Shown here piece after piece: positions 773 to 63,250 of a DNA stretch of 64,000 nucleotides. The number at the start of each line of letters is the position of its first letter. The stretch's first letter is position 1. The notes beneath the pieces were generated by a model, which saw nothing but the letters and a program-made list of their open reading frames with translations, was not told the origin of the DNA and searched no databases. The DNA lies in the NCBI RefSeq assembly GCF_019649055.1, contig NW_026570299.1, positions 496,001 through 560,000 of the forward strand, written 5' to 3'. The stretch is from Paramacrobiotus metropolitanus. Lineage: Eukaryota; Tardigrada; Eutardigrada; Parachela; Macrobiotidae. Both the position numbers and the translations under genes were made by a program.

Positions 773-2060
773 ATGATTTTCTATGCTCTATTATTAATGG
801 TGCTGGTGGCATTCATCGACAGTTGTTGTGGTTCCATGTACAAAACGTATAGTAAGTGGGCGCCTACTTGATTTGTCTCTGACGAATTTACAGTAATTTC
901 TGTTAGATTCCCGCAATCGCTGTGGTGATGTTATCCACCTTGACTGCCCGACAGTCTCCGCGGCCAGCGCCGGTCGTATCGAATTCCGACCGCAGTTAAC
1001 TGTCGTTAAGATGAGCGACAACCTTACCGATTACGGTTATGCCTACGATGTGTGTCACCAGCGGGAGGCGTGTAAACTGACCGTAAAAACAGCGCAAGCG
1101 TGCGGAAACACTGGAGATGAGTACGCCATATACTTCAGTCTGCGGTAATTCAGCCACTATCATCCCTCCCGCTTCTGTAAACGGTAAAACCAACGTTGTC
1201 TATTGACAGAACATTCGAGTTACCTCAAGGTTCGCGGTTAGAAATCTACGATATAACTAAGGACCAGAGCTTACTCAGATCGTGGAGCGTTAAACCGAAT
1301 TATTTTCCGGCTACAACCACTGTCAAGAGCGCTGTGCCGCCAGAAGTCATCGGTCAGCTGCTGTCGGATTTCACTCCCCAACCGGCCCTCTTTCTCGAAT
1401 ATTTGCACGGAACGGGAGCTTGTCGCGGTTCACGGAAGGTGGTCTTCGATTACATTATTGTTGAGAGTAAGCAATTTAGCATGTAATTCAACATTTTGAA
1501 ATACACTGTATCATGTTGTGTGTGAAGGCCAGAGTACGGGAAACAACACCTTGTGCAAAGCCTTGAGTGGCTACGTAAATAACGAGTACATCTGTGATAC
1601 CTCCGACGATCGGATTAACTGCCCGTTGCATTTATCGGAATCGACTGAAAATATGGAAGAAGTTTACAAGCGTCAGTACTGCGGTATGTTGCGATAAAAT
1701 TGTCTGAAAGTTTAGGTATGCGAAAGTAATGTTACAGCAGTATAAATCGGTACGAGTACACATTCAATAAAATTCTTCAAACTTTTTTGTTCAGCGCCGA
1801 CTGGATGGGTCATCGGTGGAATTACAACCGGCGCCGTCATCGCTGGCCTGGCGCTGATAGTCCTGGTAATCCTTTTGGTTGGCCACTGTCGCAGGCATCC
1901 CTGCACTTGCCGCCCTACAAAGTTTTGCACATGGTCCAGCGAACGCAAGTGTAATTTGTGGAGCCCGTATTGTTCGTGCCTGTTTCGCTACGAGATTCAG
2001 TGTGATACTGGAAGCGATACGCATTTGCTGTCCAAAACGAACGATACCACCGATGAGTAG
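773..2060 (+). CDS. CUB-like single-pass membrane protein, locus A (5 exons, 331 aa)
   Basis: Exons by eye: 773-851, 907-1144, 1210-1466, 1528-1683, 1795-2060. Splice phases 1-2-1-1 are the same as in paralogs B, D, E and F, and the total of 996 nt closes in frame. The protein starts with a hydrophobic signal peptide (MIFYALLLMVLVAFI...). The two ectodomain exons follow, with a CG near the start, YAIYFSLR, LEIYD and VVFDYIIV matching the paralogs. Next comes a module with LCKALSGY, ICDTSDDRINCP and QYC, then a TM helix (about residues 245-268) and a Cys-rich cytoplasmic tail. The overall fold looks like a CUB domain (IYD and FDYVI positions), which is an inference. It is the most diverged paralog: the tail is Cys-rich instead of Pro/Tyr-rich and there is no stalk exon. 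The exon 4 acceptor (AAG) is weak. AATAAA at 2234-2239 is a plausible poly(A) signal. Role unknown; a cell-surface receptor or adhesion protein is likely. Confidence 0.72.
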
Positions 2061-2457
2061 CTACTCTGACCCGAAATAGAAAGTTTAAACTGTTAAATCT
2101 GATGTCGCCTTTAAAATTATTAAACATTCCGGAGCAGGAACGGAGTGACTACCATCAAAACATACTTCAACACGTGATTCTGTTAAATGCTATGCAGAAG
2201 GCACAATCCGTATGCGGTTAGGCTAGACCTCAAAATAAAGACAGACGAAGGGTTTCTTTTATGTTTAATGTCGGAAGAATTTACGGTCTACGTTTACTGG
2301 TGAACGAAAATTGTTACGTTTAAATTTATCTTGACATGATCAACCCGAAATTTTATTGCATTAAAATTATTCAACAACCACGCGAAGCTGAATCAGAACT
2401 GCGCACTGGCAAAGTACCAGTAATAAGCGACAACAGACAAAATTCACGACCGAAAAT

Positions 2458-4972
2458 CTAACGCGGCTGAAGGGCTGCAGGGGCCGGTGCATCTTCCTCC
2501 CATACGCGCAGAATATTGTTTGCTTCGAAATCCTCCGTTCCGGCCGTCCACTCCACGGCCTGTACGCTCACGTGATCCCGAATTCTACAGTCCACAGTGA
2601 ATCCGTATGCCGCACTACGAAAGATTATCCTCTCCTTGCAAACAAATTTTATTTGAAGTATCGTTATTAATTCAGTTACCATTTGTAGTCTTTCTGTACG
2701 ACAGCCCGGATAAACTCCAGCACTTGGTTCAGGTAGCTGATACTGCGTCGCTTGCTCCAGTGATTGCAGGTGGCTAGAGGGCACTGCAGTACATGAATAG
2801 TAAAGATACTTTACATATACTTCAAGTACACGTTGTAATAAAAACATTATTACAGCAAAAGGGCGACAGCAGAGCACAAACCTGCGTCTTATCTGGAATG
2901 CCTGCTGGCTGGATCATGTCGCAGCGGATCAGCTCGTTGTTTTGCGTGATGCCAAGGACCACCCGCTTCGAACCACTGACCGTGCAGCGGTTCCAAATTG
3001 CTCTGTCGAGGGTTTGATATTTCCTGAAAATCGATTTCCCTATTTCCCGAACGCCGTACTTTCATATCCGTGCAACATAAGACATTCGAAAGAAAGACTC
3101 CACAGAACGCTCATGTACAGCAAATTGAGCACGGTAAAAGTTTTTCAGGCTCAATTACTTTAGCAGCTACGACGGTGCTTTTCCCGGCTGCTTAATGAAA
3201 ACACGGGATCTGCCACATATCGGTATTTTGAATCTATGACGTGTATGCGACTATAGAAAACGCTTACAGTGGACAGCGGGGTTTGTCGGGCCCGCGCGCT
3301 CGATGATCTTCAACAACACCGAGATAGGTGTAACTGCCCGGTGCAGCGCCCATACTTGGCTCGATACAGTCGATCTTGTGGGAGTAGAGCAAACGCGTTG
3401 AGCCGATCGTCCAGCCCAAAACTGAGTAGAAGTAGTCGATCGAAATGTTCTGCGCATTGACTTCACTGCTCTCGGTCGTCACTAGATCAAGCTGTTGTAC
3501 TCTGTAAATATCACGGCTCTCCAGAGAAAACCGACGCTCAAAAACTTCAGATATGATTATGCGCACAGATTCAACGATAAATTAATGGTCTTTGAAGAAT
3601 TGTGATAAATAAAATCTCGCATACCGTTGAGAATGGAGCACATAACTTACGACAAAATAGTCTGTGTCAGTCTTACCCGGAAGGTTTCGCGCCGTTGACC
3701 GCGGTCGGTTTGGATGCGGCATTCTGTTGAGCGCACGCGAAGTAGACGATGTTTTGGCGTCGACAGGCCACGAACTGATGGCCAGTCTTCTTGTGCGTGG
3801 TGTTCGGCTGGTCCAGCAGCAGTCCCACGGCACGGCCACTGCACACGATATGCGGGCTGCAACGAGGACAGCACAGTCGTCGATCTGGTGCACTGACACA
3901 CCAAAACGTTCACATTTACGTAGAGTATATTCATGCTAAAAGCAGCAAAACCTTACAGAAGCAGTGAGATAAAAAGCGCTGACAAGGAAAACAAGTCATT
4001 AGCTATACGCGTTGGCGGCTTTGCAAACGTCCGGCACATTTGCTTTCCAATTAATTTTGCACTGATTTCATATGATTACCGACTGCTCGTCCGCTCGCAT
4101 CCCACCGCCGACAGCAGCAGCGATCTGAGCAAGAATTCCAGTTAATTCAAATCTAATTTGAAATTTTTAATGAGTATCTATCAGCGCGGGTTTGTGACGT
4201 TAATTGGATATTGCTTGAATAAAAACAAACATAAAAAACTGAAGCAGCACTTACCAATATGAATATAATCAAACTTCTCTATAACAAGCACTAACTATCA
4301 AAATTGGGCACGTTAAGAAGTTACGAATTTGTTTACTATAGAAGTATTTTCGGTGCCTTTGAGCATGTTGGGCTTTTTTATGAATGAATGGACACGGGCA
4401 CTTGTCGCCGCGCATAGTCAGCCGACAAACAATGCCGCACTTTCTCACGGCTTTGACTGTTTGACAATACGACATACGTGCCGACTGAATCTGTCTCACG
4501 AAGTGAGCGGTCTATCAGCGCGTACAGTGATTTTGCTGGGTAAGCTATGATTTATTTTGAAACCAGTGAAATACTTTGCTTCTGATTTCCGATCGTATGA
4601 TCGTATTTCGTATCTGCACAGTAGAATGCGAATACATCTGCAACCGTACCTAAATCGGTCAAACGCTGCCCGATTGTGCTCCATCCAGGTGCGCAGGTGG
4701 ATCAGCGGGCGCCACGTTCCTGTTGGAAAGTGCGATCCCTCTTGCTTGTACTGTTGCAGACGAGTGTCGGGATCCATGGCGCATAGAACGCTCCACTGTA
4801 CCGCCAAAGTGCGCAATAGTTGTCGATCTCTGTCGTCCACGTATTCCTTACAATCCGGATCTTCGTGCTGGTTCCGCAAACCGAACCAGCCCACTTCCAC
4901 GACTGGCGAGCGCTCGCAAGGGACGAAGTCATCGGTAGAGCGGACAAATGACATCTCGCCGACTACGGACAT
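2458..4972 (-). CDS. Unrecognised six-exon protein family X, copy X1 (372 aa)
   Basis: I do not recognise this family. Exons on the minus strand: 4972-4650, 3856-3677, 3501-3268, 3002-2882, 2783-2680, 2614-2458. The 1119 nt close in frame. Each exon is conserved in X3 and most in X2. Exon 1 has VGWFGL, DCKEYVDD and FPTGTWRPLI. Exon 2 has SPHIVCS, FVAC and VYFAC. Exon 3 has YFYSVLGWTIGSTRLLYS. Exon 4 has VSGSKRVVLG. Exon 5 has CNHWSKRRSISYLN and exon 6 has AAYGFTVDC and DFEANNILR. No signal peptide or TM helix is visible in this model. The frame is open 40 codons further upstream (to 5092), and a CTTCAG lies just before the chosen ATG, so an extra 5' exon could exist. I chose 4972 because X2 and X3 also start a few residues before the conserved (S/Y)T-x-DF motif. 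The gene converges on CUB-like gene A with 398 bp between stop codons. Confidence 0.7.
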
Positions 4973-5092
4973 CCTGAAGTAGTCGTGAATTACAGGAAAA
5001 TGAGTACTGGCAACCCACTGTCCAGAGGAAACATATGGGGGATGATCAGTGAGCGGAAGATCAGGAAGTTTATTCTGGTTTATAACGTTCAA

Positions 5093-5788
5093 GAAAATCG
5101 TAGATAAAAGGCACTTACGGGAACGTCGAAGCGCTAAATGGGGCTGAAATATTCGAAGGCTTTACCCAACATAACGTAGTGAAATGCCGTTCGGCATGAC
5201 GACGTTACTCAAATTGTTTCGGAAGTACCTCCCATTCGACGCGCTCGACCAACCGGTTTCACTGCTGCTACGTAGACTGATTGCACCTAGGTACTGGACT
5301 ATTCGACCGTCTAATGTCCCATTGCCTCAGCAGTTAACCCATTAACCAATTAAATTTGGAATGGTTTAAAGTAGTCCTACTTGCGCAAGCTCGTTGTTTA
5401 TCTGGATTGACTGCTGCCGAATAACAAGTTGTACGACTGGATGGATTTTTGCTACTGTAGCGGCAATTGCCAACAACTGCAGTTTCTTCGGCAATGGTTA
5501 CCAGAAGGGCGAAAAACCAAAAACCATGCATTTTACTTTTTATCCAAAACTACATACATGTGTCGAGTGAATAATTATTTCGCTTTTCTTTACAAAAATC
5601 AGAAGCGCACGGAAGTAAAAAAAAATCGACCTGCTAATGTAATACCAGAAACCCATTTACACAGCTGCACTGTGACATCCAAGTTAATTATCAAAATCGG
5701 TGCAACCTTTTAACCCGAAAGAGCTCTAGCAACGCCGTGTATCGCATTCCACAGAGATCGCGATGTTGCCGAGGGGTCCAATCTCGTA
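5093..5788. other. Intergenic stretch between X1 and GPCR exon 2
   Basis: No ORF with recognisable content. A short CCTTTTAACCCGAAAGAG string near 5707-5724 resembles the sequence just after the non-LTR ORF at 46018, so a few bases may be a degraded retrotransposon 3' end. That match is too short to annotate firmly. Confidence 0.35.
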
Positions 5789-8700
5789 TTAGGAATTGTT
5801 GTCCTCCGCCACTGTCTTGGCGACGGTGTTGACGCTGATCTTCCGTTGACCCCACCACAGCTTCCACACGTACCGACTGGCAGCGACGCGGAAGCCGCGC
5901 ATACTCAACGCAAAGAGAACCGGGTCGAGTACGGCCTGCAGCCCGTACAGGACCATCATGACGCTACGGCCACTGGAATTGTCGCTCAGCGTGGTGAACA
6001 GTGTCACCGTCCAGTATGTCTGATCCGGCGTCCAACAGATCAGCACGCTAATGGTCAGCAGGGTCAAAACGACGAAGGGGCGGGGTCCTTTGGGCTGGCT
6101 ATTTTGAGCCTATAATAAACGAGGTCTTTCGTGTTAAATGCTTTAGTACGCTCCTTTAGAAAAATCATATGGCGTTTGGCAGTATTTACTTATTTTACTT
6201 ATTCAGTTCGCTGTCTTTCTAGAAAAAGAACTTGCCAGAATTACCGCGCATCTTAATGTTAAAGTTAAGTATAAATATGGGGAAAATCAGCTAGCCGTTT
6301 AGTTGATATAAAACCCTTAATGCACTACGTCTACCACCGTAACGTACACTAAGGGAAAAAGCTTAACTTTTATTTCCATATCATGACAGCTGCACTCCCG
6401 ACAACTGTGCCGCCTTCCCACAGTTGCATCAACTTATATACCACATCAATATGCTGAATTGCTCATATTCGCATACAGCCACAAAGCTAGAAAAACACAT
6501 GCACCAATCCCATCACTGTGTTTCACATTAACCACATCTGCAGGCCACATTCATCCTGCCTCCTTATTATTCCCACTTGACCAGCAGTCAGCGATCTTAC
6601 AGAGATAAGGAACGATACGGTAAAGATATAAATATCTGCACACACATATGGTCATAATTAATACTCGTACTAACGAGCACGCAGACCATGCACATTGGCA
6701 ATTAATTAAACCATGATAGCCGCCGTCCACTTGTCAACACCACGGCCGTAACATTACCCTCCGCTTAGATTCTTCGTCCCGAAGAATAGGTCAGCTGATC
6801 TGAATGCACCATCAAGATCACGGCCATCCGGAGAACGATATTGCGCTGATCCTTAATTAACTGCACGGAATCCAATTAAATAATGGGCACATTAGCCAAC
6901 CCGGCTACACTGCCTCGATTAATAACCACTATTGTCTGTGCACTGTTGCCACATCTTCCTCCACCGCTTTTAATTCACCTGCGGCTTATTGTTCGTGCAT
7001 TGGGCCATCAAATGTCCAACGCCACCACACTTATAGCACGACCTCGCACCGCGTTGTGCTAACCTTCCCGTAAACTTTGAACCCCGTTTTCCGTTGTCCC
7101 TTTGTCCACTGCCACCCGGCTCATCCCGGCCGCCGGCATTATACACAGTGCTGCCCGCACCGGCGCCGCCACTGTGCACAACGCTGTTGTCCTCAACCGC
7201 GTCGTCGCTGCATGCACTAGCACTATCGTCATCACCCGCATCACCGACCTGTCGCTCCCGCGCGCTATCAGTACTGTCTTCATCCTCTTGACGATCATCC
7301 CGCTGCCCGTAATATTTGCGGTAGTGCTCATGTTCTTCCCATTCTTCCTCGTCAGACGCCACCGGCCCAGTGACGTACTTATTCTCCTTACGCTTACTGC
7401 GCTTCACAGCAGTTTGTGCAAGCACCAAATCAGCGTAAAACTCCGTAGGCGTAGTCGCTTGAGAAAGCACCACATAACCGTAGTACGATTCAAGTAATCC
7501 ATCTTTCAAATGTTCGATAACATCCGCATCGTCCATTTTCGGATTAGCAAGGTAACATTTCGAAACTTTCTCGTTGAAATACGTACTTACGTCCTCATCC
7601 GGCAATTGTTTCCGGCGTCGCATCTCACGCTTGTAACGCTGAATCATGTCCTTAGGACGAAATCGGGCAATTAATGCCGTTTTAAATGCCGCCCAGTCAG
7701 CCCATGGAATCCTCGCTCCGTCACTGGTCTCCCTATCATACCAGTTGGCTGCAAATGCACGCAGGTATATCGGCGCCTGCTTCAGCAAGACAGCATCCGT
7801 CCACTCAAGTGCATTACCTATGCGCTGAAATTGCCGGCACCATTCCTCCACCACTTCTTTAGCTTCCCCGCTAAACAACGGTGGCTTGGTGTCACTGGCC
7901 AATTTCAGATCCGTAAACTCCTTGGCTAACTGGCGAGAGTTCACATTCACTGTATACTTCACACCGGCTGCTTCCACAGCGGTGACCTTATCCTTGTCGC
8001 CCATTCGTTTCCAAGCGATGATCTCTTCCTATATTGTCGGATATTATCCCAATATCTCAACAATATCAAACAACACAGTCCACCGTATCCGCAGCGGTAA
8101 CCTTTTCCTCTATCATCGGATATTAGCCCAATATCCAACAATATCCAACAACACCGTCCACCGTATCCACAACGGCGACCTCCCCGTTAATTGTCAGAAA
8201 TATATCCCGATATTCCGACAATGTCAAACAGCACGGTTTCCCGTTCCCACAGCGGTGATTTTCTCCTTCCGCTATATTGTCACATATTTCCCAATATCCC
8301 AACAATATTCAGCAACTCGGCCCACCGTTCCCACAACGATGACCTTTTCCTCCTCACCCGTTATATTGTCGGATATTATCCCAATATTCCCACAATATAG
8401 CACGGTTTCGGCACCAATGATATAAAACCCTTAATGCACTACGTCTACCACCGTAACGTACACTAAGGGAAAAAGCTTAACTTTTATTTCCATATCATGA
8501 CAGCTGCACTCCCGACAACTGTGCCGCCTTCCCACAGTTGCATCAACTTATATACCACATCAATATGCTGAATTGCTCATATTCATACAATACAAAGCTA
8601 GAAAAACACATGCACCAATCCCATCACTGTGTTTCACATTAACCACATCTGCAGGCCACATTCATCCTGCCTCCTTATTATTCCCACTTGACCAGCAGTC

Positions 8701-11700
8701 AGCGATCTTACAGAGATAAGGAACGATACGGTAAAGATATAAATATCTGCACACACATATGGTCATAATTAATACTCGTACTAACGAGCACGCAGACCAT
8801 GCACATTGGCAATTAATTAAACCATGATAAACGCCAAGACTTCACTTTATTCAAGAACACAACAAGAACACAACTTGGGGTATCAAAAGGGCACAGTAGT
8901 GCCGACAAACAATACGGTGCGAAGCGCCCTAACGACGCCACATGGGGGAAAAAAAAATTTTTCCGTAGCAAGCGGCTGGATCGCGCCAGTAATGAGCCGG
9001 CTCGGCGAAGGTGACCGGCTTATATATGCGCGCTTCCAAGCGGATGTGCAGATAGGCAAAGGGGCTGGGGGTAGGCTTCGCCATGCAGTGGCAGAGAGGC
9101 TACGCGTTCAGTGGGCGTTTATCAACAAATTTCACCAATAGTGAAATCTAACCCATAAACGCCAAGACTTCACTTTATTCAAGAACACAACAAGAACACA
9201 ACTTGGGGTATCAAAAGGGCACAGTAGTGCCGACAAACAATACGGTGCGAAGCGCCCTAACGACATAAAATCCTCAAGTTGGACGCGACAGTTTTGGCGA
9301 AACGGGAGCGGAGGTTAGGAGCGCGGTTAGCGTAACGCTCGAAGCAGTGGCTGGCCCAAGTTCCTTGGGCCTTTAATTCGTCAGTCGTTGCTCCCATGGC
9401 AGCGGCAAAGGTGGTGCCGCCTCTGCGGAAGCTGTGTAGGGAATAACCTTCGGAGTTGTAGCCGGCGGCTTTAAGCGTTCGTTTAAGGAAGTACTGAAAC
9501 TTCCCTGCTGTTAGCGGCTTAACTTTTCCTCTTGCACTGACATGAGAAAAGGGGGAGGCGTGTGGATATGGGTTCAGCTTGTGCAAAGCTGCCCGGACCG
9601 CTTGAACGGGGCACAGCGGTGAATCTTTAACCGTAGGGATCGGCAGTGTAACCGAACCGTCAGCGAAGACGCTTGTTTTGATGGCGGGGACGGTTATGTC
9701 AAGGCCGCTAGGCGTAAAACGTATACCGCTAACTCGCAAGAATTTAGAATTCTTGTGGAAAGGCAGCAGGTTGCTTTTTCGAAGCAACGAAAAGAAGGCG
9801 ACCAGGGCGGCTGCCCAGAAGGGCTTGCGGAAGCACTTTGGAATGGTGGTTAGGCGACCTTGAATTTTACACAAAATCTCAGGCGTGATTGGAAGTCGGG
9901 CGTTGGGGGTTTGTGCTTTCGTACGTTTGATAGCGCGCAACGTCAGCTGTATGCGGAAGTGGGAAAGGTCGGGGGCCTCAAGTCCTTCGCGATGGTGCAA
10001 TGAGACAACGCTGGCAAGGTAATTGCGCACAGAGGAATACTGCATTTTCGGCGAAAGATAGGCAATAAAGCGGCAGAGCGTCTCAATGTTTGCGGGGCAT
10101 GGGCGCGTTGAAATGCTTTTGCAGAAGTGCCGGTAAATCTTCCACTGGCTCTTTCTGGTGCGCAGCGAGGACGGTGCAAGTGAGGTTTTCCACAATTTCC
10201 GCAGCCGTTTGTCCAGTTCCTGCGTTCGGATACCTGTAAATAAAATCTCCAGGTAATTCAGCAAGGGCAGTGCGGCGTCCGGCCATAGCTAAGTCTAGTA
10301 AGCGCGGGTCAATGGTTGCGCGGCTTAAGGCGTCAGCTGCAATATTCTCCTTCCCAGGAAGATAGGAGGCTGATATGCGAAAATTGTAAGCGACTGAAGC
10401 ATAAAATACGAGTTTCAGCCAACATAAGGCTGCTTTGCACTTCGTCGTAGCTCGATTTATAAAGGAAACTGTTTGCGTGTTGTCGGATTCAATAACAACT
10501 CGGAAGCCCGCCAGATGCGGCGCCCATACAAGCAGTGGCAAGCAGGCGGCAATTAGTTCGAGGAAATTGATGTTTCCTCTCAAGGCGTCCTCTAGTAACG
10601 GCGAGGTTAACCAGATAGAGGAGACAATCGCTGGCGGCAATACGTTAGCCCAAGATCCGGCAATTGCACGGCGGCCCATTGTTGCACCAAAGCCGGCGAG
10701 ACAAGCGTCTGTTTGGATGAACACCGATTTCCTGGGCGGGGAAATCAGTGACGGGCAAAGACCGTTTAAAGCAGGGGAGACATCGTGCCACCACTGCAGT
10801 TCTAACTTTAGACTCGACGTCAGGCGTGTGCGGTGGTTAGGGCGAGACAATGGTTTAAGGGCGTCTATGAATATCCTCGCGAAAGGACGAGCACCGTAAA
10901 TGGCTTTGGCGGCAAAGTTAAGGCGTCCAACCAGCTGCTGTAGTTCCTTCTTTGTGGCTTTATTGCGGCTAAGCAAAACACCAGTTTCCGTGCGGAGGTT
11001 CTGGAGTTTCTCTGGCGGTAGCTCAATGGTCAACGACACGGAGTCGAGGGTGACGCCCAAGAATCGGATGCGAGTTGTTGCGGAAATAACTTTTTCCCAG
11101 TTTATGGCAAAGCCCAGGTCTGTTAGAGTAGTTATTAAGCAACTCAAGGCGGCGGTGCATAGGTCAGCTGTCTCTCCTATAACGAGGAAGTCGTCCAGGT
11201 AGCACACAATCTTGTAACCTTTCAGGCGAATAAAGCGCGCAACTGCTGAAGATAAGCGGAAGAAAATGAACGGAGCTATCGAGAGTCCAAAGCACAGGAA
11301 GTTGTCGATAAAGTAAGTTTCGGGTTGTTCGTCGAAACTCCAAGCAAAGCCCTGCAGCTGGCGATGCGGTGGGAAGACTGGCACATGGCGGTAAGCAGAC
11401 TTGATATCGACCAGGGCGTAATGGCAGGCGTAGCTGCTTAGCGCAAGGGCGTCGTCAATAGATTGTAGGGAAAATTTTCCGGGAAAAATATACGAATTCA
11501 AACTGTCCGAGAATGGGCGGCTACAGTCTGTGATAGGGCGGAACTTCTCAGAATCGGCTTTTTGGACTGCACCAATTGCATGCACGCGCTTAGGCTTACT
11601 ATGGGAGTAGGAAATTTTCCCCTCGGCGATCTCACCGCGGAACAGTGTGTCCAGAAATGGTTTAGCTTGTGCCGTAAGTGCGCTGGAGTAGTTGTGGCAT

Positions 11701-14778: not shown

Positions 14779-14796
14779 GGCTTTCACAATACTCAC

Positions 14797-27763: not shown

Positions 27764-27775
27764 CTCCCGTTCTTA
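27764..27775 (-). promoter_or_regulatory. Polypurine tract of the Gypsy element
   Basis: On the minus strand AAGAACGGGAG directly precedes the 3' LTR. Confidence 0.6.
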
Positions 27776-41851: not shown

Positions 41852-42270
41852 CCGGGAACTATGCCACAACCAGCAATAGTCGCAACGACAACGACGACAA
41901 CTAATTAAGGAACTTAATTCAATTACTTAGCATAGTCACAGACATAGAATCACAGCTGGTGCCACGCAAAAATTCGGATCGGGATGCAATCTACATCGAA
42001 AGTCATCAATATACTGTATTACTGTGTTCTTCTTGTAGAAAACCCAACTTTCCACAAAAATTCCAAGATGGAACTCTACATCCATCTTCTGATAACCTCA
42101 GATATGACAATTGATGACAATCGACTTGCAGCAAAATCACCGACTGCATTATTCGTATTAATCGTGCTTGCGTACTTCTGCGCCTTCCGTTGATTTTAAA
42201 GTTTGCTTTACTGCAAGATTAGAACTGCTACAGAGTCAGGTTTTAATTTCAGACACCGATTATCGGCGTA
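41852..42270. other. Spacer between pseudogene C and X3
   Basis: Part of it (about 41905-41975) resembles the 3' flanks of E (55269-55320) and F (63251-63310), with a shared CGCAGCTG/CACAGCTG-type core, so the duplication that made these copies included 3' flanking DNA. No gene. Confidence 0.45.
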
Positions 42271-52488: not shown

Positions 52489-53301
52489 ACAACTGAATTT
52501 TAATGTTCTGGCAATACTACATGAAAAAATTCTTCTTCATGAGTTCAATTTCATTTATTCTTATTCTTCTTGCGCTTCATAATAAATAATATTTTGTGGT
52601 AAAATGGAAAGCAATAACCAGGAAACTGCTGTCTTGACACAATTAAATTCACAAAGGGAATTATACTCTGTAGCGTGCTTCTGATTCTCGCAACCCATAC
52701 GAATGCCGGCAGTGTCGCTTCCTCACTTTTCCTGGTGACTACTTGGTTAGTTTGGCGCGAGAAGCGCGGAGTCTCAATTGTGGCGTGTCGCTTCTGGTGA
52801 AATTCTTGGTGTCTCGGTAACGTACGTTCTTATGTGCAGTGAGTCTCATTTACTGACGATTTGGCATCAGTTTAATTATAATATGAGGGCATTTGTGTTA
52901 ATCTGTGTTGCTTAACCTCCAATGTTACGCTAACTTCAGCTGACACGTGTAATACTGTGCAAACAAATTAAAGTTCGCAGTGTATTAATGGCCATATATG
53001 TTATCTTTATCTTATTTGCATGCGACAGCTGTTTAACACAATTTATCAAACACAATGAGTAAGATTATTTCCTGTTGTTGATAAGGGATTATTCAGTACA
53101 GCAACAGCAAGCTTAAAAAGCTTGAAACGCCATTGTCAATGTCTTTTGCATTCAACGAAGCACATAAATTGCGTAATTTTTTCTGCTGTGTTACTTCTAA
53201 AGGCAACATCCATATTTTTCATGCTGCATTTCTTTTAAAGACAGCAGCTGCTTTAATAAGCAAAGTATTGGCGCTTCCACTTTATAAAGTACAGAAACAT
53301 C
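52489..53301. other. Spacer between D and E containing a segment repeated upstream of F
   Basis: The stretch 52905-53050 matches 60810-60965 over about 140 bp (shared ACAAATTAAAGTTCGCAGTG and CATGCGACAGCTGTT). It precedes the start codons of E and F by similar distances, so it is probably promoter-proximal DNA copied together with the genes. Confidence 0.6.
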
Positions 53302-55268
53302 ATGTTAGTCTTTCCGGTGGCCACCGTTTTCTTGTCATTTCTGACTGTTTCCCAGATCAATGCAGCATCCTACACTGCAGCGCGTAAGCTAGGCCTGCCT
53401 TTAGCAGAACAGTATTACGATTGCAGTAGTGTTATAGATGACGTTACGAATTTTGACGTTTATTAATGTTTTAGGAAACCTGGAGAATTACTGCGACCGA
53501 ACCCTGAGCATAAGCTGCCCGTCCATTTATGGAGAAGCTGGAACACTCAGATTTCATTACATGCCTAGCACGTCATGCAAAGTGACAGTTACACTCAGCA
53601 GCAGTTCTTGTGGATCGTCTTATGAATACTTCGGCATCTACCTTAATATACGGTAAGAGTGCGTATTGTGAATTCGATTACGTTTCACATAAGTTTTAGA
53701 AGTTTGAGTTTTACCGTATTCGTGGACAGTTGAGTAAGTATCGTTACCAAATAACGGAAGCACGGGCTGATTTATTAAATCTGTTAAATCTCTATAAATC
53801 TGGTGAATCTCTATGAAATCTGGATCGACCGGTAGTACAGTTCAAAGCGAGTCGCGCATTTTATGTACTGCGATTTTGGTTACACTTTAGGGCGGAGACA
53901 TCGCTCCATAACATTAATTTTTAGTAATTTACATAGCACACGCAAGCGACCTGTATTCGGATTTCCCAAGCAAAGCCGCTGTACAAAACTTGTGCCGGGC
54001 CTCGTTTGAGAAGCATAGATAAAAAGCGCTCGGTAGGATTTATTGGAAAGGGAACTTCTTGTAGGAAAGGGAAAAACTAAATTTCGTTAAAGTTCTTCGA
54101 ATGCAGTGTCCCGTATGGCGAGCTGTTTCCTTATCTCGGTGATCGGTTAGCCGTCGGAATCGAAGTAGAGATGACGGTTAACAGTCTTACATAATTATAC
54201 ATACGAGTTGTTCAGTTTGTATGGAAATTATAGTTCTTCATTGCAGAAAATCCTACATGCCAACAAGCTCGACCATGCAAATTTACGACACATCCAGCAG
54301 TCGTACGCTGGGAAAGTCGTGGAACGGCGGGAATCAGCCACAGTACAGCAATCCCACCTCCGCTGGTCAGTATCTCTCCAGATCCACCAGGCGTCCAGAA
54401 ATTTCCATTGAATTCACACCATCCCGCTCCTATCCTCCCACATCTAGCCATGAGGTTTATTTCGATTATGTTATTGTTTCAGGTAACTCAGTGCAATTCG
54501 ATTTGCGTAATGATGTTTTACGGTATCCCTTAAATGTAATTTATTAAAAGAAAATTCTTGGTGAACCTGCAGACACCACCTCATCGTACAACACGTACTG
54601 TCGCGCGTTAAGCGGGTATATCAGCGACAACCTTATTTGCGACACATCGGATGACCGTGTCAACTGTCCTTCGTCGTACTCTGCCTCGGTGTATACCATG
54701 GAAGCGGCAACATCCCGCCAAAGTTGCTGTAAGCGTTGACCGCTCCACAACCGTGTCTGAAAGCGACCATAGTAGAGAACAGAAGAATACGCACTGGCCC
54801 GCATTAATTTTTTATACTCTGTTAAATTTCAGCGACAACGACAACAAGAAGAACGACAAGAAGAGCAGCAACAACGACAGCGAATTACGATTATCTCGGT
54901 TTGCAGCAAAATAAATAATTCGTCATATTGTATTTTGATGGTGAAATAATATCCGGTTTATTGCAGTGCCCACTCATGGCGGGCTAAGCGGCGGTGCCAT
55001 TGCCGGCATAGTTATCGGATGTGTGGCATTTGTGGCCATTATCATTGGGATCATTGTCGCTTGCGCCTATCGTGGACCGCAGGTGACGGTGCAGAATGCG
55101 GCTTTCACCCATAACGCCCACTCAGCTGCACCAGCGGTGGTCTTTACGCAACAAAGCGGACCGCCACCGTATCCTTATCCTGCCCAGGTTTACGCCCCGG
55201 GACCGTATCCACCGGGAACTATGCCACAAACAGCAACGTTCACAACGACCACCACGACGACTAATTGA
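53302..55268 (+). CDS. CUB-like single-pass membrane protein, locus E (6 exons, 339 aa)
   Basis: Exons 53302-53383, 53475-53652, 54247-54482, 54573-54728, 54833-54898 and 54967-55268; 1020 nt in frame. Signal peptide: MLVFPVATVFLSFLTVS. CUB-like part: NLENYCDRTLSISCP, MPSTSCKVTVTL, YFGIYLNIR, STMQIYDTSSSRTLGKSW, EISIEFTPS, VYFDYVIVSG. Four-Cys module: NTYCRALSGY, LICDTSDDRVNCP, SRQSC. The fifth exon, read in the splice-consistent frame, is a Thr/Arg-rich stalk (TTTTRRTTRRAATTTANYDY). TM: GGAIAGIVIGCVAFVAIIIG, then NAAFTHNAHSAAPAVVF, a PPPYPYP stretch with a PPxY-type WW ligand, and YAPGPYPPG. The stalk donor (CTCG|GTTTGC) is weak, so the stalk may be optional; exon 4 to exon 6 splicing also keeps the frame. 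The usual CG after the first Cys is CD here. Confidence 0.85.
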
Positions 55269-56066
55269 GAATTTTTTTGATGATCACAGTCATAAAATCG
55301 CAGCTGATACCACCCGACGAGCAATCTTCCTCATGACATTGCATTATCCTTGGAACACTGCGGCAAAATCTCTGCAATGGTAGTTGCAAATTGTTTTGGC
55401 TTACAATATGTTTTTCATCCGCTTGGCACTGTTTTGTATTAAGATAAAAACGTGTAACAAGGAAAATGCTGCTTTGACATATTGCTGACTCCACAAAGTG
55501 AATTACTGTTGTATTGTGCTCCTGGGCTTCGCAACAAAGACGAAAATCCATGGCACGATTTTTTCATCATACTTTTTCCTGCCACTTGGTTACTCTGACG
55601 AGAAGTGCAGAACATGGCTTGCACGTCTCGTAATGCCTTTTGTGGTGGAACGTTGCGCAACGCTTTTTGCTGCTCTCTTTGCGGCACTTGGATTCCGCGA
55701 GTTATTCTCCCAAAGTAGCCTATCCTCTCCTAGCCGCCGAAGAAGTGCTGGTTTTTGCTTTCTCCGCAGCGGCAACCCCCTGACACTTACTTTTGAGTAC
55801 AATGCGTGTGCATGATGCAGTTCAGAATGCGCCCCAGTTTGGCTACACGTTTAATCAGTTATGAGAAAATGAATGTACGGTAGATGCTAAGATGCGTAAC
55901 AGCCGTTAAAAAATTTCATACCAGCTGGGCCGACGACACCAAAAGTCTTGAAAGCTAAAAGAACAAAGTCGTACTCAGGCGCTAGGTATTCGTACTTCGT
56001 GCCTAGACCATTACCGCCTTTTAATAAGCATCACATACAAGTACATACTGAGTACTAAATCAAAAT
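55269..56066. other. 3' flank of E, no gene
   Basis: Positions 55269-55385 resemble the 3' flank of F (63251-63380), for example CGCAGCTGAT and GCAATGGTAG/GCATTGGTAG, marking the duplicated unit. ORF 55498-55815 is unsupported. Confidence 0.45.
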
Positions 56067-57605
56067 TCATAACAAAAACACTTCTTCAATGCTATCCTGC
56101 TCGGGGATCGTACCCATGACACATAACGCGTTTCCCCGTTGCATTTGAATAGATAGCCGCTGTCTAAAAAACTCTTTTGCCCGCTTCTGGCCTGTGGCGG
56201 AAGCCATGCAGTTGCCGCCCTTCCCCACGAGTTTTTTCGTTCCGCCTCCCCAGGGTCCGTAAATTTCCAAGGCGGCAGCTACTAGATTGTATCTTGGTTG
56301 TAGCCAGCCGTGTTTCGACAGTTTTCTTCTCTCCGCCTGCTCCGCTGCTGCACCGACGCACACGGAAGTACGGTCAATATACGACGCGGCGAGTGGGTCC
56401 ACGCAGGTTACGTCAATAGCCAGTGGTTTTCCCCGCTCCCACGGGACGAGGGTAATCACATCTGGCCGTTTTTTATCTTTCACGGACAGGCCTTTTGGCT
56501 CCATTCTGGCCGGAAAACCCGCGGTCTTCAAAGCACGGGTGAATTCTCCACTGATTCCATCGTGTCGTGGCAGCCTCCCAGCTGACCGTTTGCAACGGAG
56601 CCCGTGACGGCCCAGCTCGTCGACCAGACTGCCGCAGACGCACACGTGAGGAGTGATAATAGGAGCTCCCAGACGCAACGCCACACGTATACGGAAGGCG
56701 TCGTTATCCAACAGGTTACCAAGGCAGGCTGCGGGCAACGCATGGATCCACACACCGGATTCCGGCGCTGACACCGCCTTCAGGTGAGCGACTTCCTCTC
56801 GGGAGACCCTTAACGTGGCCAGCTTTGATAAGGCGTTCAGGGTCGCAGGTGTGTCCCAAACTTTTTGGACGTGGCGCAACGCTACAGGCGGGAGTTCATC
56901 CGTTTCGGTTAACGCTTTCCAGGCGCATGTGGCGGTTGTCAAATCCGTAGCCGTTAGCGTCGGGCACAGTCTGGAGATCAGCGGGTGCAACGAAGAAGCC
57001 GATGCCAAATAGGCAGAGGGAGCTAGCTTCTCCGTGCGTCTGATCCCCAAACCGCCAAATCGAACGGGAAGGGAGGCTTGCAGCTAGGTCGGGTGGTCCA
57101 TTCGTACGTTCGTAATGGTCTCCACTGCTTCGCGAAACACCTGGTCGAGTCTGTAAAGCTCTTTTGGGAACATCCAGGCCAGTAACGTGCGCAAAACGTG
57201 GACGATTTTCGGCACTGCCAGGCAATTCTTCAGTAGAAAAAGGGCTTGGTGCTTAGGTATCAGCTGAAGTCGGCTGCACATAACTTCCAGCTGACGGATC
57301 TTCTCGTCGATCATCGGAACTACTGCTGCTGGCAACAGAGGAGATCCGAGTAAGCTCAGTTTTTCCGCCGAAACAATAGCAATGCCGGGAAACAAACCGG
57401 CAAAGTGATTAGCGGCCGCTGTTCGCTCCGTTGCGGTGCCGCCGCACAGGAACAGTTCACATTTTCCGATGTTGACTGCCAAGCCGATCTTCTGAGCTTC
57501 TGTTATTAGCTGCTGAAAGTTTTGTAGCACGCTCAGTAGGCTGCCTCCTAATGTCGCGTCATCCATGTACCAGGCGTTGAGGTGCCTAGATTGATATCTA
57601 GGCAC
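56067..57605 (-). pseudogene. 5'-truncated R2-like non-LTR copy with one in-frame stop
   Basis: It starts at the catalytic box (AWYMDDATLGG, about 57580). It continues through KIGLAVNIGKCELFLCGG, HQALFLLKNCLAVPKIV, ASLPVRFGGLGIRR, a CVCGSLVDELGRHGLRC cluster, KKRPDVITLVPWERG and AIDVTC, and ends TGQKRAKEFFRQRL ... VFLL with a stop. A TAG at 57084-57086 replaces the Trp found in the other copies (WTQASLPV); otherwise the frame is open. The tail is the closest match to the fragment at the left edge of the window (2-145). Everything N-terminal to the RT catalytic box is missing. Confidence 0.82.
57583..57604. repeat. Perfect 9-bp hairpin at the truncated 5' end of a non-LTR copy
   Basis: TGCCTAGAT (57583-57591), a 4-base loop, then ATCTAGGCA (57596-57604). 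It lies right where homology to the RT family ends. Confidence 0.7.
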
Positions 57606-57866
57606 GTTATCACCTGTCATACACAGTACTCGTACGGTAAAAATATTATTTTTATCACTTTTACATGTGCAGCATACCTTAGTCGGATCCCCACAGTGAT
57701 ATTGTTAACAGAAGTATTAGTAAGAAACAACAAAGGATCGATTTACAGTAAGATCCCCATGACATTTTATGGAAGATAATGCTGACAATAAATTATAAAT
57801 TAAGTGCCTGTATAAAAATACGTTGCAGTTTCTTACCAAGACGAAATTTTGACTTTTCGCTGAGTC

Positions 57867-58848
57867 TAACATGCCATTCGGCTCGAGGATGGACATCTAC
57901 GATACATCACGATACATTTACGATACAGCACGCGCACACTGGGCAAAACCTGGACCGGAACCTCCTATGCAGCGCCGCGGTACTGTCTTTGACATATCCG
58001 CTCAGAGCGCTGCAGTAAGTACTGTACGATGAATAGGTGTCTAGGATAGAGAATAACATCCTGTCTGTTCTACAGGAACTTTAAGGTTCATGAATTCACT
58101 TCCTTTCAGAATTACCTCACACAATAACTTAGTCGAATACGACTTGATGACTGGGATGTGGGATATAATGTTACAGAGGTGGATTCAATAGAAATGTTCG
58201 GTTGCCTAGCCGATGCGGAGAGATACTGGCCAGCTGAGGAGGGGTTCGAGTACAGTGAAACCTCATCTTACGTACACCCCGAAGAAACGTACACCCCGGA
58301 ATTCCGTACGGAGGTGTACGTATTTCAGAGGTTTCACTGTATTATTTGCGACGCCACCGACGACCGCATCAGTTGCCCTTACTCTTATTTGTCGGTAGTG
58401 CACGGTTTGGATCCGGCAATATATCGACAAACCTGCAGTAAACATCTCTTTCTTCGTTCGTTATGTTCCGTAATAACTTATTTCGAATTTTTTGAAAACT
58501 GCTTTTGGATATTCAGTACAGAATGTGTCATTTATAACAAAACGCTGCAAAAGGCGCTTGCCTTGGTTCTATGCAGCACTGGATTGGGGAGAGATTGCCG
58601 GCATCGTCGTTGGGTGCGTGGTCTTTGTGGCAATCGTCATCGGGATCATTGTTGGCTATCGCGCCAATCGCCGGCCTCGCACCACTGTCCAGAAAGTAGC
58701 CTTCACCAACAACGCCTACTCTGCAGCGGTCGTAACTTTTTCTCAACCGGGTGCGCCACCGCCGCACCCCAACCGGGCCTATGTTCCAACTTCCAGCACC
58801 GTATCCAGCGGGTATAGCACCGCTTCCTCCGGCACCACAGCATGTTAA
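57867..58848 (+). pseudogene. CUB-like locus G: rearranged by a microinversion, lacks exons 1-2
   Basis: The first half of the second CUB exon is on the plus strand (57871-57979: MPFGSRMDIYDTS, then ARTLGKTWTG), including a small internal duplication of ACGATACA-type sequence. The stretch 57980-58258 is inverted: on the minus strand it reads the second half of that exon (YSNPSSAGQYLSASARQP...), the intron, and the first half of the four-Cys exon (YCSALSGYV). After a MITE (58253-58339) the plus strand resumes with the rest of the four-Cys exon (ICDATDDRISCP, YRQTC). The TM/tail exon (58586-58848: GEIAGIVVGCVVFVAIVIG, VAFTNNAYSAAVVTF) follows and is intact. Signal peptide and first CUB exon are not present; a truncated retrotransposon lies upstream. 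It is closest to gene B. Confidence 0.8.
58253..58339. mobile_element. 87-bp MITE with CAGTGAAACCTC ends and TA target duplication
   Basis: Perfect 12-bp terminal inverted repeats CAGTGAAACCTC/GAGGTTTCACTG with further inner pairing (TACGTACACC/GGTGTACGTA). TA occurs on each side (58251-58252 and 58340-58341). The CAGT start and TA site are typical of Tc1/mariner/pogo elements. It sits inside the four-Cys exon of locus G, at the right end of the inverted segment. Confidence 0.85.
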
Positions 58849-60077
58849 ATAAGGGACTGCTTGCAGGCGGTAGAACCAATTCTAGCTAAACAAACGAGCG
58901 AAATCTGCTGTGCATACCCAGCAAGTTGACTTCATTTGGTTGACCTTCATCGGGTCTAACACTGTAATCGTACTTTTATAGGCATCCGTAGTTTCAACCG
59001 TAGTATCACTTAAAATTGCTGGAAATGTATTTCGGAAGATTTTCGAAGGCAGACAAAATTTCTTAAAAATGGCTTGTAAACAAAGCATTTGTTTGTGATG
59101 TGTTTCTTAAACAAACTTTTTAGGGGAAGGTTGTGGGCACCACCTTTCACCACCAAGGTCTCCCGACATCACGTTTCAACAGTTCCTGCTTTTGAAAAAG
59201 AGTTAAAAGCACCGAACAAAACACAACGAAATGCTTCTGTTCTTTTTTAATCATAGATGTTTGGTTTGGATGTGTTCTGTGGTCGAAGCAGAAGTAGAAA
59301 AGGAACAGCGACAGCAAGTAAAACATCTGATAGTGTACTGATTGTTGTACTGAAATAAAAAGGGCACGAGTGGTGTTAGTACTGAAATTGGGATTCCAAG
59401 GACAAGTAAGTTATTATCGCATAGACTACGAATCTACAGCTGAAAAGGGGAAGGGAAAGCAACTTCTAATGAATTACGGAGTCCCTATGCAGCAGGTGTA
59501 AGAAATTCAAATGATTTCTCCACTTTAAGGCGCAAAATTTTCCTTTTAAGGTTTAAGATCATTTCTGCAGCCAATTAAAGCGACATGCAAATTTTTTAGT
59601 AGACATTATCGTCGTCTGTGGACTTTGTACAATTTCAGGGTTCGTCCATAAAACCTAATTTCTACCTGCAGGCTGTTTTAATATTTGCACTACTATGTAG
59701 GTTATGATGTTGTATGATTTGTCCATCGCATACAGAGTCTGTAAATGATTAGGTTATGATCTGCCCATCGCATTAATTCTTTCGCGCAATTTGCGCGGGG
59801 TCTGCTGGTACAATGTTTATAATGGTTATAACTAAAGGTCAGCGGCAGCTACTAAACTGATGGCATTTAGTAACCTTTAATACTCAAAACAATTAAGAGA
59901 GTTGGCCGTCGCTAATCATACTAGACAGACTGACCGTTTCCATCTTCACCTTCCAGACTTCCTAACGGCAACTAACTTTACAATTTTCAAAACAGTTCAC
60001 ATTACCAGTTCATATTAACAGCTTAACAATGGACTCTGTGGGAAGCACAACAGAACCGCCAACATGAGTGATTCACA
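58849..60077. other. Intergenic region, no gene
   Basis: AT-rich, only short ORFs. The string TTAGGTTATGAT followed by CTGCCCATCGCA is nearly repeated at 59700-59775 (two units of about 60 bp). No gene is supported. Confidence 0.35.
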
Positions 60078-60109: not shown

Positions 60110-60116
60110 TGTGTAG

Positions 60117-60344
60117 CTACATCTTTTCCCCGATCGCTTTTGAGACGATGGGTCCCTGGGGTCCGTATGCTATCGCTATTGCGAAGGAACTGGGGAAACG
60201 AATGCAACAGCATACAGGAGAGCGCCGGTCGCATGAATTTCTGCGCCAACGGCTTTCGCTGGAGATTCAACGCGGTAAAATGCAGCATTTATCCTTGGCA
60301 CGATGGACGGAGTGGATAGTTTAAATGAAATTTTGCTGTTGTAA
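60117..60344 (+). pseudogene. 5'-truncated non-LTR retrotransposon ORF end
   Basis: Encodes FSPIAFETMGPWGP, KELGKRMQQHTGE and FLRQRLSLEIQRG, like 24129-24380. A one-base indel near 60275 shifts the last 20 codons; the final LNEILLL and stop are readable in the other frame to 60344. Confidence 0.75.
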
Positions 60345-61240
60345 ATTTGCTGTTACGTGTTTCTTTTTCTTTCATCAGAAATGTGCGTTGATTATCATAA
60401 TCCATAGGCAAACCATAAATCAAGAAATCATCGGTTATTTCTAAGTGCCAAAACTCTCTTTAACCATCTTCAGCTGGGGCTGTTGCTCCCTCATAGTTGG
60501 CAAATTATGATGATTCATACGGGAATTATGTAATCACTGGGAATGTATGCCTGCGTTTATAACCAACAGACGTACTACACGTGGCATTCATGAGTCAGCA
60601 AAATATTATCAGCGAATCGGAAGACGAGTACGCTTGCGTGGCACGGCAGTAATTTGTCAATGTCAAAAGTAGTTTTCACAAATTCTTACATGAGATAAAT
60701 GCGATACCATTTCAAAGGATCAATTTTTTTAAAAGTTTATATCTGTGTCACTGTAGGTGTTTTCGTTCCAAACACATAAGAAATTAAGTAGTTTTGTGCA
60801 GGTAAGGTTGGTTGGGTGCTGCTTAGCCTCCAGTGTCTCGCTAATATCAGATGCCACGTGCAATGCTGTACCAACAAATTAAAGTTCGCAGTGCATTAAT
60901 GTCAATATGTGTTATCTTATTTATTTGCATCATGCATGCGACAGCTGTTAAAGATAATTTATCAAACACAACGGTTAAAGGCTGTTGCACGTTGCTGATT
61001 ACTCATGTTGCATGTTGCTGATAACTCAATACAGCAATTGCAAACTCAGAGAGCCGTAAATGCTATTATCAATAATGTCTTTTAAAGTCAACGAAGTACC
61101 ACAACTGCGTACAGGTGCAGGTTAATTTCGACGGCCATAATTAAATTTTGTCATGCTGTATCACTTCTAAAGGCATTAGCTACCGTAACAAGCTTTAAAT
61201 ATTAAATTGGCCCTTCCGATTTGTAAAGCACAGAAACATC
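60345..61240. other. Upstream region of gene F with a duplicated promoter-side segment
   Basis: Positions 60810-60965 match 52905-53050 upstream of E. CATGCATGCGACAGCTGTTA is the best conserved part. No gene. Confidence 0.55.
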
Positions 61241-63250
61241 ATGTTAGTCGCTCCGACAGCCACCGTTTTCTGTGCATTTCTCACTGTTTCCCAGATCAAT
61301 GCAGCATCCTACACTGCGACGCGTAAGTAAGACGCACCTTTAGCCGAGCAGTATTACGACCAGATGCGTTATGAATTATTGTGACATTCCTTAATGCTCT
61401 AGGAAATCTGGAGGATTATTGCGGCCGAACCCTGAGCACAAGCTGCCCGTCCTTGTATGGAGAAGCTGGAACCCTCAGATTTTATTACATGCCTAGCACG
61501 TCATGCAAAGTGACAGTTTCTCTCAGCAGTTATTATTGTGGAACGTCTTATGAATACTACAGTATCTACCTCAATATACGGTAAGACTGCAAATTGCAAA
61601 CTCGAGCGCCAATGTATGTTATAGCAGTTTGTGTTTTTTCCATATTCATATTCTTATGCACCTGAGTACCGTTATCAGGTAATTAATGTACGGGATTGGT
61701 TACTAAATTATTTTGGTTATCTCCTTCCCATTTTTGGTGGACCGGTGGCCCGGTTCAAAGCGGGTGGAACATTTTGTCATTTGTGCATTTTAGCTTTAGT
61801 TACGCTTTGGAGCAGAAGCATTGCTCCATAAAATTTGTGTAACTCCATAGCGCACGCGAGCGATCTTTCAGATTTCACAAGCAAAGGTGCCTCACGAAAC
61901 GTGCGATGGAACAGTTAGAGTATGTAAGAAAAAAACGCTCGGTCAAATTCGGTGCAAGTCGAATTCGAGCGCCTTTTCCCATTAAAAGCAGGTGGCATAA
62001 TATATTATTAGGCACGACATAATGAGTGATTCCCAATCGATAAGAAACTAAAAACCAAATTTCTTTTAGCTAAATTTCGTTAAAGTACTTGGTACTATCA
62101 CAACCTTCAATGTGGCGCCTTACAACCCTTCGTCGGTTTTTGGTTAGCAAGCGTTTTGAGGTTGAGATAACAAACTGACGGAGAGCAATCTAAAAAGTTC
62201 AATCGGTTCCAAAAATGGTTACTTCATATTACAGCAAATCCTACATGCCTTCAAGCTCCAAGATGGAGATCTACGACACATCCAGCGGTCGCACACTGGG
62301 AAAGTCGTGGGACGGAGGCTTTAGTCAGGCGCAGAACAGCAATCCCACCTCCGCTGGCCAGTATCTCTCCAAAACCACTGGTCGTCCAGAAATTTCCATT
62401 GAGTTCACTCCATCCCACTCCTATCCTCCCACATCTAGCCATGAGGTTTATTTCGATTATGTCCTTATTTCAGGTAAATTAATACAATTCGATGTGCTTG
62501 ATGTGCCCCTATTTTCGTCATAATTGAACTTCTTGTTGTATCTGCAGACACCTACACAAGGTATAACTCGCACTGCCCCGCTTTAAACGGTTATCTTAAT
62601 GATAACATCATCTGCGACACAACGGATGATCGCGTCAACTGCCCTTCGTCGTACTCCGCCTTGGTGTATAACATGGACGCGGCAACATCCCGCCAAACTT
62701 GCTGTAAGCGCTGTCCGCTCCACAACCAAGTTTCGAAGCTACCGTAGTAGAGAACAGAGGAGTGCGCACTGGTCCGCACCACTTTTTTATAGTCTGTTAA
62801 ATTTCAGCAACAACGACAACAACTGGACCAACAACAACAAGAACAGCAGCAACAACGACAGCAAATTACGATTATCTCGGTACGCAAAATAATAAATAAT
62901 TTTTCATACGGTAATTTGATGGTATAAATATGATCCGGTGTATTGCAGTGCCCACTCATGGCGGGCTAAGTGCCGGTGCCATTGTCGGCATAGTTGTTGG
63001 ATGTGTGGCATTCGTGGCCATTGTCATTGGTGTCATTGTCGCTTGTGCCCACCGGGCACCGGAAGTGACGGAGCAGAAAAAGGCTTTCACCCACAACGCC
63101 TATTCCGCGATGCCAGCGGTGGTCTTTACGCAACAAGGCGGCTTTCCGCCGTACCCTTATCTTGCCAAGATTTATGCCCCGGGGCCGTATCCACCCGGAG
63201 CCATGCCACAATCAGCATTTATCACTACGACTACCACGACGACTAACTAA
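61241..63250 (+). CDS. CUB-like single-pass membrane protein, locus F (6 exons, 342 aa)
   Basis: Exons 61241-61322, 61403-61580, 62235-62473, 62548-62703, 62808-62879 and 62949-63250; 1029 nt in frame. Signal peptide: MLVAPTATVFCAFLTVS. CUB-like part: NLEDYCGRTLSTSCP, MPSTSCKVTVSL, YYSIYLNIR, SKMEIYDTSSGRTLGKSW, EISIEFTPS, VYFDYVLISG. Four-Cys module: YNSHCPALNGY, IICDTTDDRVNCP, SRQTC. Stalk exon: TTTTTGPTTTRTAATTTANY, with good splice sites on both sides. TM: GAIVGIVVGCVAFVAIVIG, then KAFTHNAYSAMPAVVFTQQ, GFPPYPYL and YAPGPYPPG. The PPxY of E is PPYPY here. Thr residues in the stalk suggest O-glycosylation. It differs from E by scattered substitutions in all exons, so it is a separate old duplicate and not an assembly copy. 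Confidence 0.86.

Follow-up and report, generated by a model that had tools for sequence, protein, structure and literature searches.

Lineage-restricted families of surface proteins are common among animals, and several modules of membrane proteins have recognizable signatures. CUB domains contain two disulfides (C1-C2 and C3-C4), the LDLa module contains six Cys (as also seen in the LDLa sequences compared here), and GxxxGxxxG is a packing motif, yet one that is frequent in single-pass transmembrane (TM) helices. On the cytoplasmic side, the type 1 motif of ALG-2 (PDCD6) ligands consists of PPYP and YP four residues apart; according to PMC5037681, PYP can stand for PPYP at lower ALG-2 affinity and the spacing may vary, the latter being stated without experimental evidence. 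PMC11399591 reports that CYYR1 recruits WWP1 to late endosomes through PPxY. In the present study, a 64,000-nucleotide (nt) stretch of the genome of the tardigrade Paramacrobiotus metropolitanus (contig NW_026570299.1 of assembly GCF_019649055.1, positions 496,001 to 560,000; hereafter the window) was analysed and found to contain a real, uncatalogued family of genes for type I membrane proteins under constraint. An earlier reading of the bare letters (hereafter the original prediction) had described this family as CUB-like receptors with Pro/Tyr-rich tails.

A Gene Family of Single-Pass Membrane Proteins

By using the individual exons as tblastn queries, seven related loci (A to G) and no other convincing match were found in the window. 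All seven had been listed by the original prediction; five of them (A, B, D, E, and F) are intact and encode proteins of 305-344 amino acids (aa), with GT-AG introns throughout and exact in-frame closure as had been claimed, whereas C and G are disrupted, and neither self-BLAST nor tblastn detected a leader or a first ectodomain exon near them. The expectation of an expanded family of single-pass proteins also held: every intact model consists of a leader, an ectodomain, one TM helix, and a tail. Hydrophobic regions occur only at the N-terminus and in the single TM in all five, which makes them type I proteins as judged by hydropathy only; the leader of D comprises two overlapping hydrophobic stretches.

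The exon plan is shared as well. The leader exon ends in phase 1 and the first ectodomain exon in phase 2; phase 1 follows again at the end of both the second ectodomain exon and the Cys-module exon, the latter being 156 nt long in every intact model. The last exon encodes the TM and the tail. The predicted phase series 1-2-1-1 is therefore exact for A and B, but D, E, and F carry one further phase 1-1 exon, a Ser/Thr/Pro-rich stalk exon between the Cys-module and TM exons that had been overlooked and that is also present in the broken C.

Kinship among the copies was evident from tblastn. The second ectodomain exons of B, D, E, and F match each other with E-values of 1e-36 to 4e-45, and weaker but clear kinship was found for A (1e-6 in the second ectodomain exon, 1e-15 in the Cys exon). 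For the first ectodomain exon, only the copies of B, D, E, and F were detected, which match one another at 3e-18 to 1e-31; that of A, undetected by tblastn, was identified from its position, phase, and Cys. E and F lie in a segmental duplication, in which self-BLAST aligned 52905-53975 with 60816-61886 (72%) and 54240-55601 with 62228-63606 (77%). The signature strings said to unite the family are present in the window, but none is common to all five intact models: MEIYD occurs in B, D, and F and LEIYD in A, FDYV in B, D, E, and F, ALSGY in A, B, D, and E, ICDTSDDR in A and E, the TM string AGIVIGCVAFVA in B, D, and E, and YAPGPYPPG in D, E, and F. No account of this family was found in the open-licence papers searched, and the duplicated family appears to be restricted to one lineage.

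Selection and Conservation

The ratio of non-synonymous to synonymous substitution rates (dN/dS, Nei-Gojobori) was calculated per exon for B, D, E, and F in all six pairwise combinations, A being excluded; since dS exceeds 1 in many comparisons, the ratios are rough. All computable comparisons gave values below 1 with the sole exception of the E-F leader (1.03; 0.27-0.48 in the other five pairs), and the genes are under purifying selection. For the second ectodomain exon, E-F gave 0.25 and the other five pairs 0.08-0.15, and its uncorrected proportion of non-synonymous differences (pN) was the lowest in all six pairs. Values were 0.09-0.23 in four pairs and 0.49 in E-F for the first ectodomain exon (one pair saturated), 0.09, 0.10, and 0.30 in three pairs for the Cys exon (three saturated; the 0.10 is the lowest value of the D-E pair), 0.13-0.34 in six pairs for the TM/tail exon, and 0.42-0.82 in the three pairs of D, E, and F for the stalk exon.

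Mean identity among B, D, E, and F was 0.84 in the TM, 0.79 in the second ectodomain exon, 0.68 in the first, 0.66 in the Cys module, 0.59 in the Pro/Tyr tail, 0.58 in the juxtamembrane part, 0.54 in the stalk, and 0.44 in the leader, so that the second ectodomain exon is surpassed in conservation by the TM helix alone. A, the most distant member, shows identities to the family of 0.33 (ectodomain exons), 0.49 (Cys module), and 0.32 (TM), while its tail is unalignable (0.14 over the Pro/Tyr part).

These data bear on the proposal that the ectodomains vary above a conserved TM and membrane-proximal tail, as in receptors with a variable recognition side and a constrained signalling side. The TM is indeed conserved, but the juxtamembrane part and the tail are less so, both ectodomain exons exceed them in identity, and A keeps the ectodomain plan with a tail that cannot be aligned. 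In the per-exon dN/dS comparison that the original prediction had named as a check, the second ectodomain exon lies below the TM/tail exon in all six pairs, and the first exceeds it in only two of five computable pairs (above in B-F and E-F, equal in D-E, below in B-E and D-F). Since the ectodomain, taken as a whole, is not where change is fastest, the test fails to support a diversifying receptor.

Proposed Mechanism and the Nature of the Ectodomain

From the family as observed, we infer a mechanism to which a probability of roughly 0.4 can be given: lineage-restricted type I proteins with a divergent CUB-type ectodomain for a constant partner, packed through a zipper and acting as trafficking adaptors docked by PYP elements. 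The two-exon ectodomain would probably be a very divergent CUB-type beta-sandwich that keeps only the first disulfide, and it is predicted to bind a constant, non-diversifying partner. The TM helices may pack via the conserved glycine zipper, and the tails of B, D, E, and F, through two PYP elements 7-9 residues apart, would dock a cytosolic proline-motif reader resembling ALG-2/PDCD6 or, where PPxY occurs as in E, a WW-domain E3 ligase. If the tail docks such a reader, the protein could act at the membrane as an adaptor linking an extracellular ligand to trafficking; A would employ a different, Cys-rich tail.

Several observations are consistent with a CUB-type fold. In the hhalign register, which matches the register found by eye, the second Cys, the next strand, and MEIYD...LGK stand in CUB order, and HMMER reproduces this register for B and E. 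HMMER at full sensitivity gave 7.7 bits for B (single-comparison E-value 1.9e-4), 6.1 for E, 3.9 for F, 3.3 for D, and 0 for A.

With regard to the TM and tail, GxxxGxxxG was found in B, D, E, and F and in the translated TMs of the pseudogenes C and G, and GxxxGxxxA in A. The predicted Pro/Tyr-rich tail is present in four of the five intact genes (B, D, E, and F), with two or three PYP elements, but not in A, whose tail has seven Cys in its last 53 aa and no PYP. The TSG101 and Scotin strings given in PMC5037681 resemble the PYP tails of the family. The Pfam profile CYYR1 (PF10873) matched the TM and tail of D, E, and B (three of five) below its cut-off of 31 bits (E-values 0.0045-0.023, 15.5-17.8 bits). 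Docking of an ALG-2- or WW-type adaptor is suggested by these motifs.

Other results weigh against the proposed mechanism. Pfam CUB gave no match to any of the five proteins or their five ectodomains at E-values up to 10, a range in which the HMMER filters discard most matches above about 0.1. No chain in the PDB was matched by the ectodomain profile, and the whole-protein profile found only six weak TM matches (E-value 0.47 or worse); otherwise, searches of Pfam, NCBIfam (with E only), and PDB, for which complete proteins as well as single domains served as queries, returned only low-level TM, tail, and composition matches. Against a CUB profile of 11 domains (10 from searches and one added separately), hhalign scored 18.2 (P 0.022), with none of 100 shuffles as high but with the reversed alignment at 16.7; on match columns, it scored 20.4 (P 0.0086; probability 4.7%), a value reached by seven of 800 shuffles, the highest of which gave 26.6. 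The score was 17.7 without A, and single members ranged from 14.4 to 18.4, whereas in leave-one-out controls by the same method, all 11 real CUB domains scored 122-206. HMMER places F in a different register. The AlphaFold model of the second ectodomain exon alone, with three strands, was weak (predicted local distance difference test score, pLDDT, 68.6), and a Foldseek search with it found nothing significant (nothing below an E-value of 1.6). With regard to the tail, PPxY occurs in only one of the four intact Pro/Tyr tails (E; the string also occurs in pseudogene C), the strict PPYP-x4-YP motif was seen by eye in none of the four, and D matches Cadherin_C_2 (E-value 0.0058) and EphA2_TM (0.0079) about as well as CYYR1. 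Beyond the window, 46 pattern matches in viral contigs and 23 in prokaryote genome contigs were obtained, none of which was confirmed as a relative.

An alternative, at somewhat less than even odds, is that the ectodomain is unrelated to CUB and represents a domain that is new or has gone unrecognised, with EIYD a coincidence. It is favoured by the absence of Pfam CUB and PDB matches, by a profile score of about 20, which seven of 800 shuffles also reach and which compares with 122-206 for real CUB domains, by the nearly equal reversed control, and by the lack of a C3-C4 pair (C1 and C2 stand 28 residues apart in B, D, E, and F, but in the hhalign register, no Cys stands at the C3 or C4 position, and two further Cys lie elsewhere). 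On the other side are the alignment register, in which the second Cys, the long strand, EIYD, and LGK succeed one another as they do in CUB domains, the 7.7 bits of B, and the 1-1 phase borders, which suit an extracellular module. With no Pfam or PDB match, a profile-profile probability of 2-5% over both hhalign runs, and only the first Cys pair in place, the CUB assignment of the original prediction is unproven; on the sequence as it stands, the balance tips slightly towards a highly divergent CUB-like module.

The Cys module contains four Cys in 51 aa. An LDLa identity was not supported, as there are four Cys rather than six, and the score of 11 against an LDLa profile built from only five sequences lies inside the shuffle range (to 19.3). 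Pfam LDLa gave no match to the five proteins, whole or as domains, at E-values up to 10, a PDB search with the Cys-module profile matched no chain, and the AlphaFold model was uninformative (pLDDT 49.4). It is conceivable, although less likely than not, that the ectodomain and the four-Cys module form a new domain, without Pfam or structure match and absent from the literature searched, in a family of lineage-restricted membrane adaptors that are constant on the outside and exchange their tails, a Cys-rich one in A against double-PYP ones in the other four intact members.

The Stalk Exon and Further Alternatives

The borders of the stalk exon line up in an alignment of D, E, F, and C. Open phase 1-1 cassettes arise in 45-58% of Markov-shuffled introns, and those with at least 45% Ser/Thr/Pro, a threshold chosen post hoc with the sequences already seen, in 0.7-1.6%. 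The intron at the stalk position holds one open cassette each in E and F and four in D (three sharing one donor), among which the D exon was selected for a border that lines up with those of E and F. Since E, F, and C are closely related, independent support for the exon comes mainly from D versus the E/F/C group. Two open cassettes, neither Ser/Thr/Pro-rich, were found in B and none in A. Because omission of the exon preserves the frame in D, E, and F, forms with and without the stalk are both possible, and its alternative use in these genes is a possibility suggested by the gene structure.

The stalk also raises the alternative that these are mucin-like structural proteins in the manner of podoplanin or syndecan, in which the stalk and TM matter and the rest serves as a glycocalyx or adhesion spacer. 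The stalk is Thr-rich, and the podoplanin profile matched the Thr stalk and TM of F (E-value 3.7e-5, 24.5 bits) and E (8.6e-5, 23.3 bits), both under the cut-off of 30. This alternative is nevertheless improbable, as the stalk exon was not found in A or B, there are no N-glycosylation sequons in B, D, E, or F, and the strongest constraint outside the TM falls on the second ectodomain exon. Similarly improbable are diversifying recognition receptors (immune or self/non-self) with variable CUB ectodomains above a constant signalling tail: local birth and death (two pseudogenes and the E/F duplication), the high leader and first-exon ratios of the youngest pair E-F, the excess of the first ectodomain exon over the TM/tail exon in E-F and B-F, and the TM as the most conserved segment would suit them, but the minimal pN of the second ectodomain exon, the higher mean conservation of the ectodomain exons than of the juxtamembrane part and tail, and the tail of A, altered beneath an unchanged ectodomain plan, speak otherwise.

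Pseudogenes and Other Features of the Window

Coordinates are collected in Table 1. In pseudogene G, the reversed segment (approximately 57982-58253) carries the last part of the second ectodomain exon together with the first part of the Cys exon, a perfect 14-base-pair (bp) inverted repeat (58251-58264 / 58328-58341) lies at the right breakpoint, and the tail appears by eye to be frame-shifted. Frames or fragments of non-LTR-type (LTR, long terminal repeat) reverse transcriptase were observed near B, C, and G, of which only 43330-45780 is assigned by Pfam; DNA matches among them join 36239-36328 with 56992-57081 and 1-132 with 56066-56197. Such elements may have helped to break or copy B, C, and G.

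Other features were also observed. The terminal repeats of a Gypsy-type LTR retrotransposon are 99.2% identical, and its insertion is therefore probably recent. Another element combines a reverse transcriptase with a frame that by eye resembles a tyrosine recombinase, but for which Pfam gave no match at 0.01, and has split direct repeats, an arrangement typical of DIRS elements. A frame that by eye looks gag-like and has an end of the CCHC type lies between two direct repeats, which are about 420 bp long and share 98.3% identity; the whole is perhaps a gag-only LTR element. Another protein family has two copies (48% identity over 109 aa) that match neither Pfam (E-values up to 0.01) nor NCBIfam (up to 1). 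The G+C content is 0.43-0.50 across the window, which contains no N letters, and tRNA and Rfam scans of the window gave no matches.

Table 1. Positions of the gene family and of other features in the window
Feature	Position	Strand	Remarks
Gene A	773-2060	+	331 aa; closed GT-AG model
Gene A exons	773-851, 907-1144, 1210-1466, 1528-1683, 1795-2060	+	
Gene B	37720-39754	-	305 aa; double-PYP tail; closed GT-AG model
Gene B exons	39754-39667, 39598-39421, 38778-38543, 38461-38306, 37979-37720	-	
Gene D	50753-52488	+	344 aa; 318 aa without stalk; closed GT-AG model
Gene D exons	50753-50840, 50967-51141, 51447-51685, 51781-51936, 52044-52121 (stalk), 52190-52488	+	
Stalk exon of D	52044-52121	+	78 nt, phase 1-1, Thr/Pro-rich
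Gene E	53302-55268	+	339 aa; 317 aa without stalk; PPPY and PYP motifs in tail; closed GT-AG model
Gene E exons	53302-53383, 53475-53652, 54247-54482, 54573-54728, 54833-54898 (stalk), 54967-55268	+	
Stalk exon of E	54833-54898	+	66 nt, phase 1-1, Thr-rich
Gene F	61241-63250	+	342 aa; 318 aa without stalk; closed GT-AG model
Gene F exons	61241-61322, 61403-61580, 62235-62473, 62548-62703, 62808-62879 (stalk), 62949-63250	+	
Stalk exon of F	62808-62879	+	72 nt, phase 1-1, Thr-rich
Pseudogene C	41258-41905	+	Cys-exon remnant (stop, shift), stalk exon, TM/tail exon with premature stop
Pseudogene G	57865-58850	+	B-like; second ectodomain and Cys exons split by internal inversion
Non-LTR-type reverse transcriptase	35335-37218	-	
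Non-LTR-type reverse transcriptase	43330-45780	+	
Non-LTR-type reverse transcriptase	56067-57704	-	
Non-LTR-type reverse transcriptase	1-132		
Two-copy protein family	4496-5161; 34378-34920	-	
Possible gag-only element	6304-8835		
Element with split direct repeats	8827-13577	-	
Rhodopsin-type seven-transmembrane receptor frames (PF00001)	13921-14988; 24489-25514; 18073-18471	-	
Gypsy-type LTR retrotransposon	27511-33874	-	Terminal repeats 27511-27763 / 33621-33874
51-bp tandem repeat	46673-47132		About nine copies
Dispersed inverted repeat pair	24082-24353 / 60118-60395		84% identical; weaker copy 13611-13759 (about 71%)

Implications and Comparison with Known Systems

If correct, the proposed mechanism would mean that an animal lineage has a further, uncatalogued family of modular surface proteins, whose modules are delimited by exons, whose tails are exchanged, and whose members are still being gained and lost, all inside 64 kb. 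The family by itself settles no long-standing question. The visual reading as a CUB receptor under diversifying selection could be tested from one window and was not borne out.

Compared with CUB membrane proteins of the neuropilin, NETO, and cubilin type, the family shares an ectodomain module bordered by phase-1 introns and the order of second Cys, strand, EIYD, and LGK, but it is not matched by Pfam CUB, has only the first of the two Cys pairs, and gives no significant profile match. The string CD-x-SDD-x-x-NC of the Cys module resembles, by eye, the calcium loop of LDLa, from which the module differs in having four Cys instead of six and a score within the shuffles. With podoplanin (PF05808), E and F share a Thr-rich stalk ahead of a Gly-containing TM, but both are below the cut-off, and A, B, and D are unmatched; podoplanin is not known to have a comparable ectodomain or tail.

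The cytoplasmic side offers further parallels. The STMC6/Shisa-like adaptors, represented by CYYR1, likewise have a leader, a Cys-containing ectodomain, one TM, and a Pro/Tyr-rich tail, and their profile gave the sub-threshold match in three of the five proteins; the family differs in its eight ectodomain Cys (B, D, E, and F) versus six, in a single PPxY (E only) versus repeats, and in scoring below the cut-off. Finally, as candidate ligands of ALG-2 (PDCD6), the Pro/Tyr-tailed members resemble its type 1 ligands, such as Scotin and TSG101, in the paired PYP elements of their Pro/Tyr-rich stretch, but the strict PPYP-x4-YP spacing was seen by eye in none of the four intact tails.

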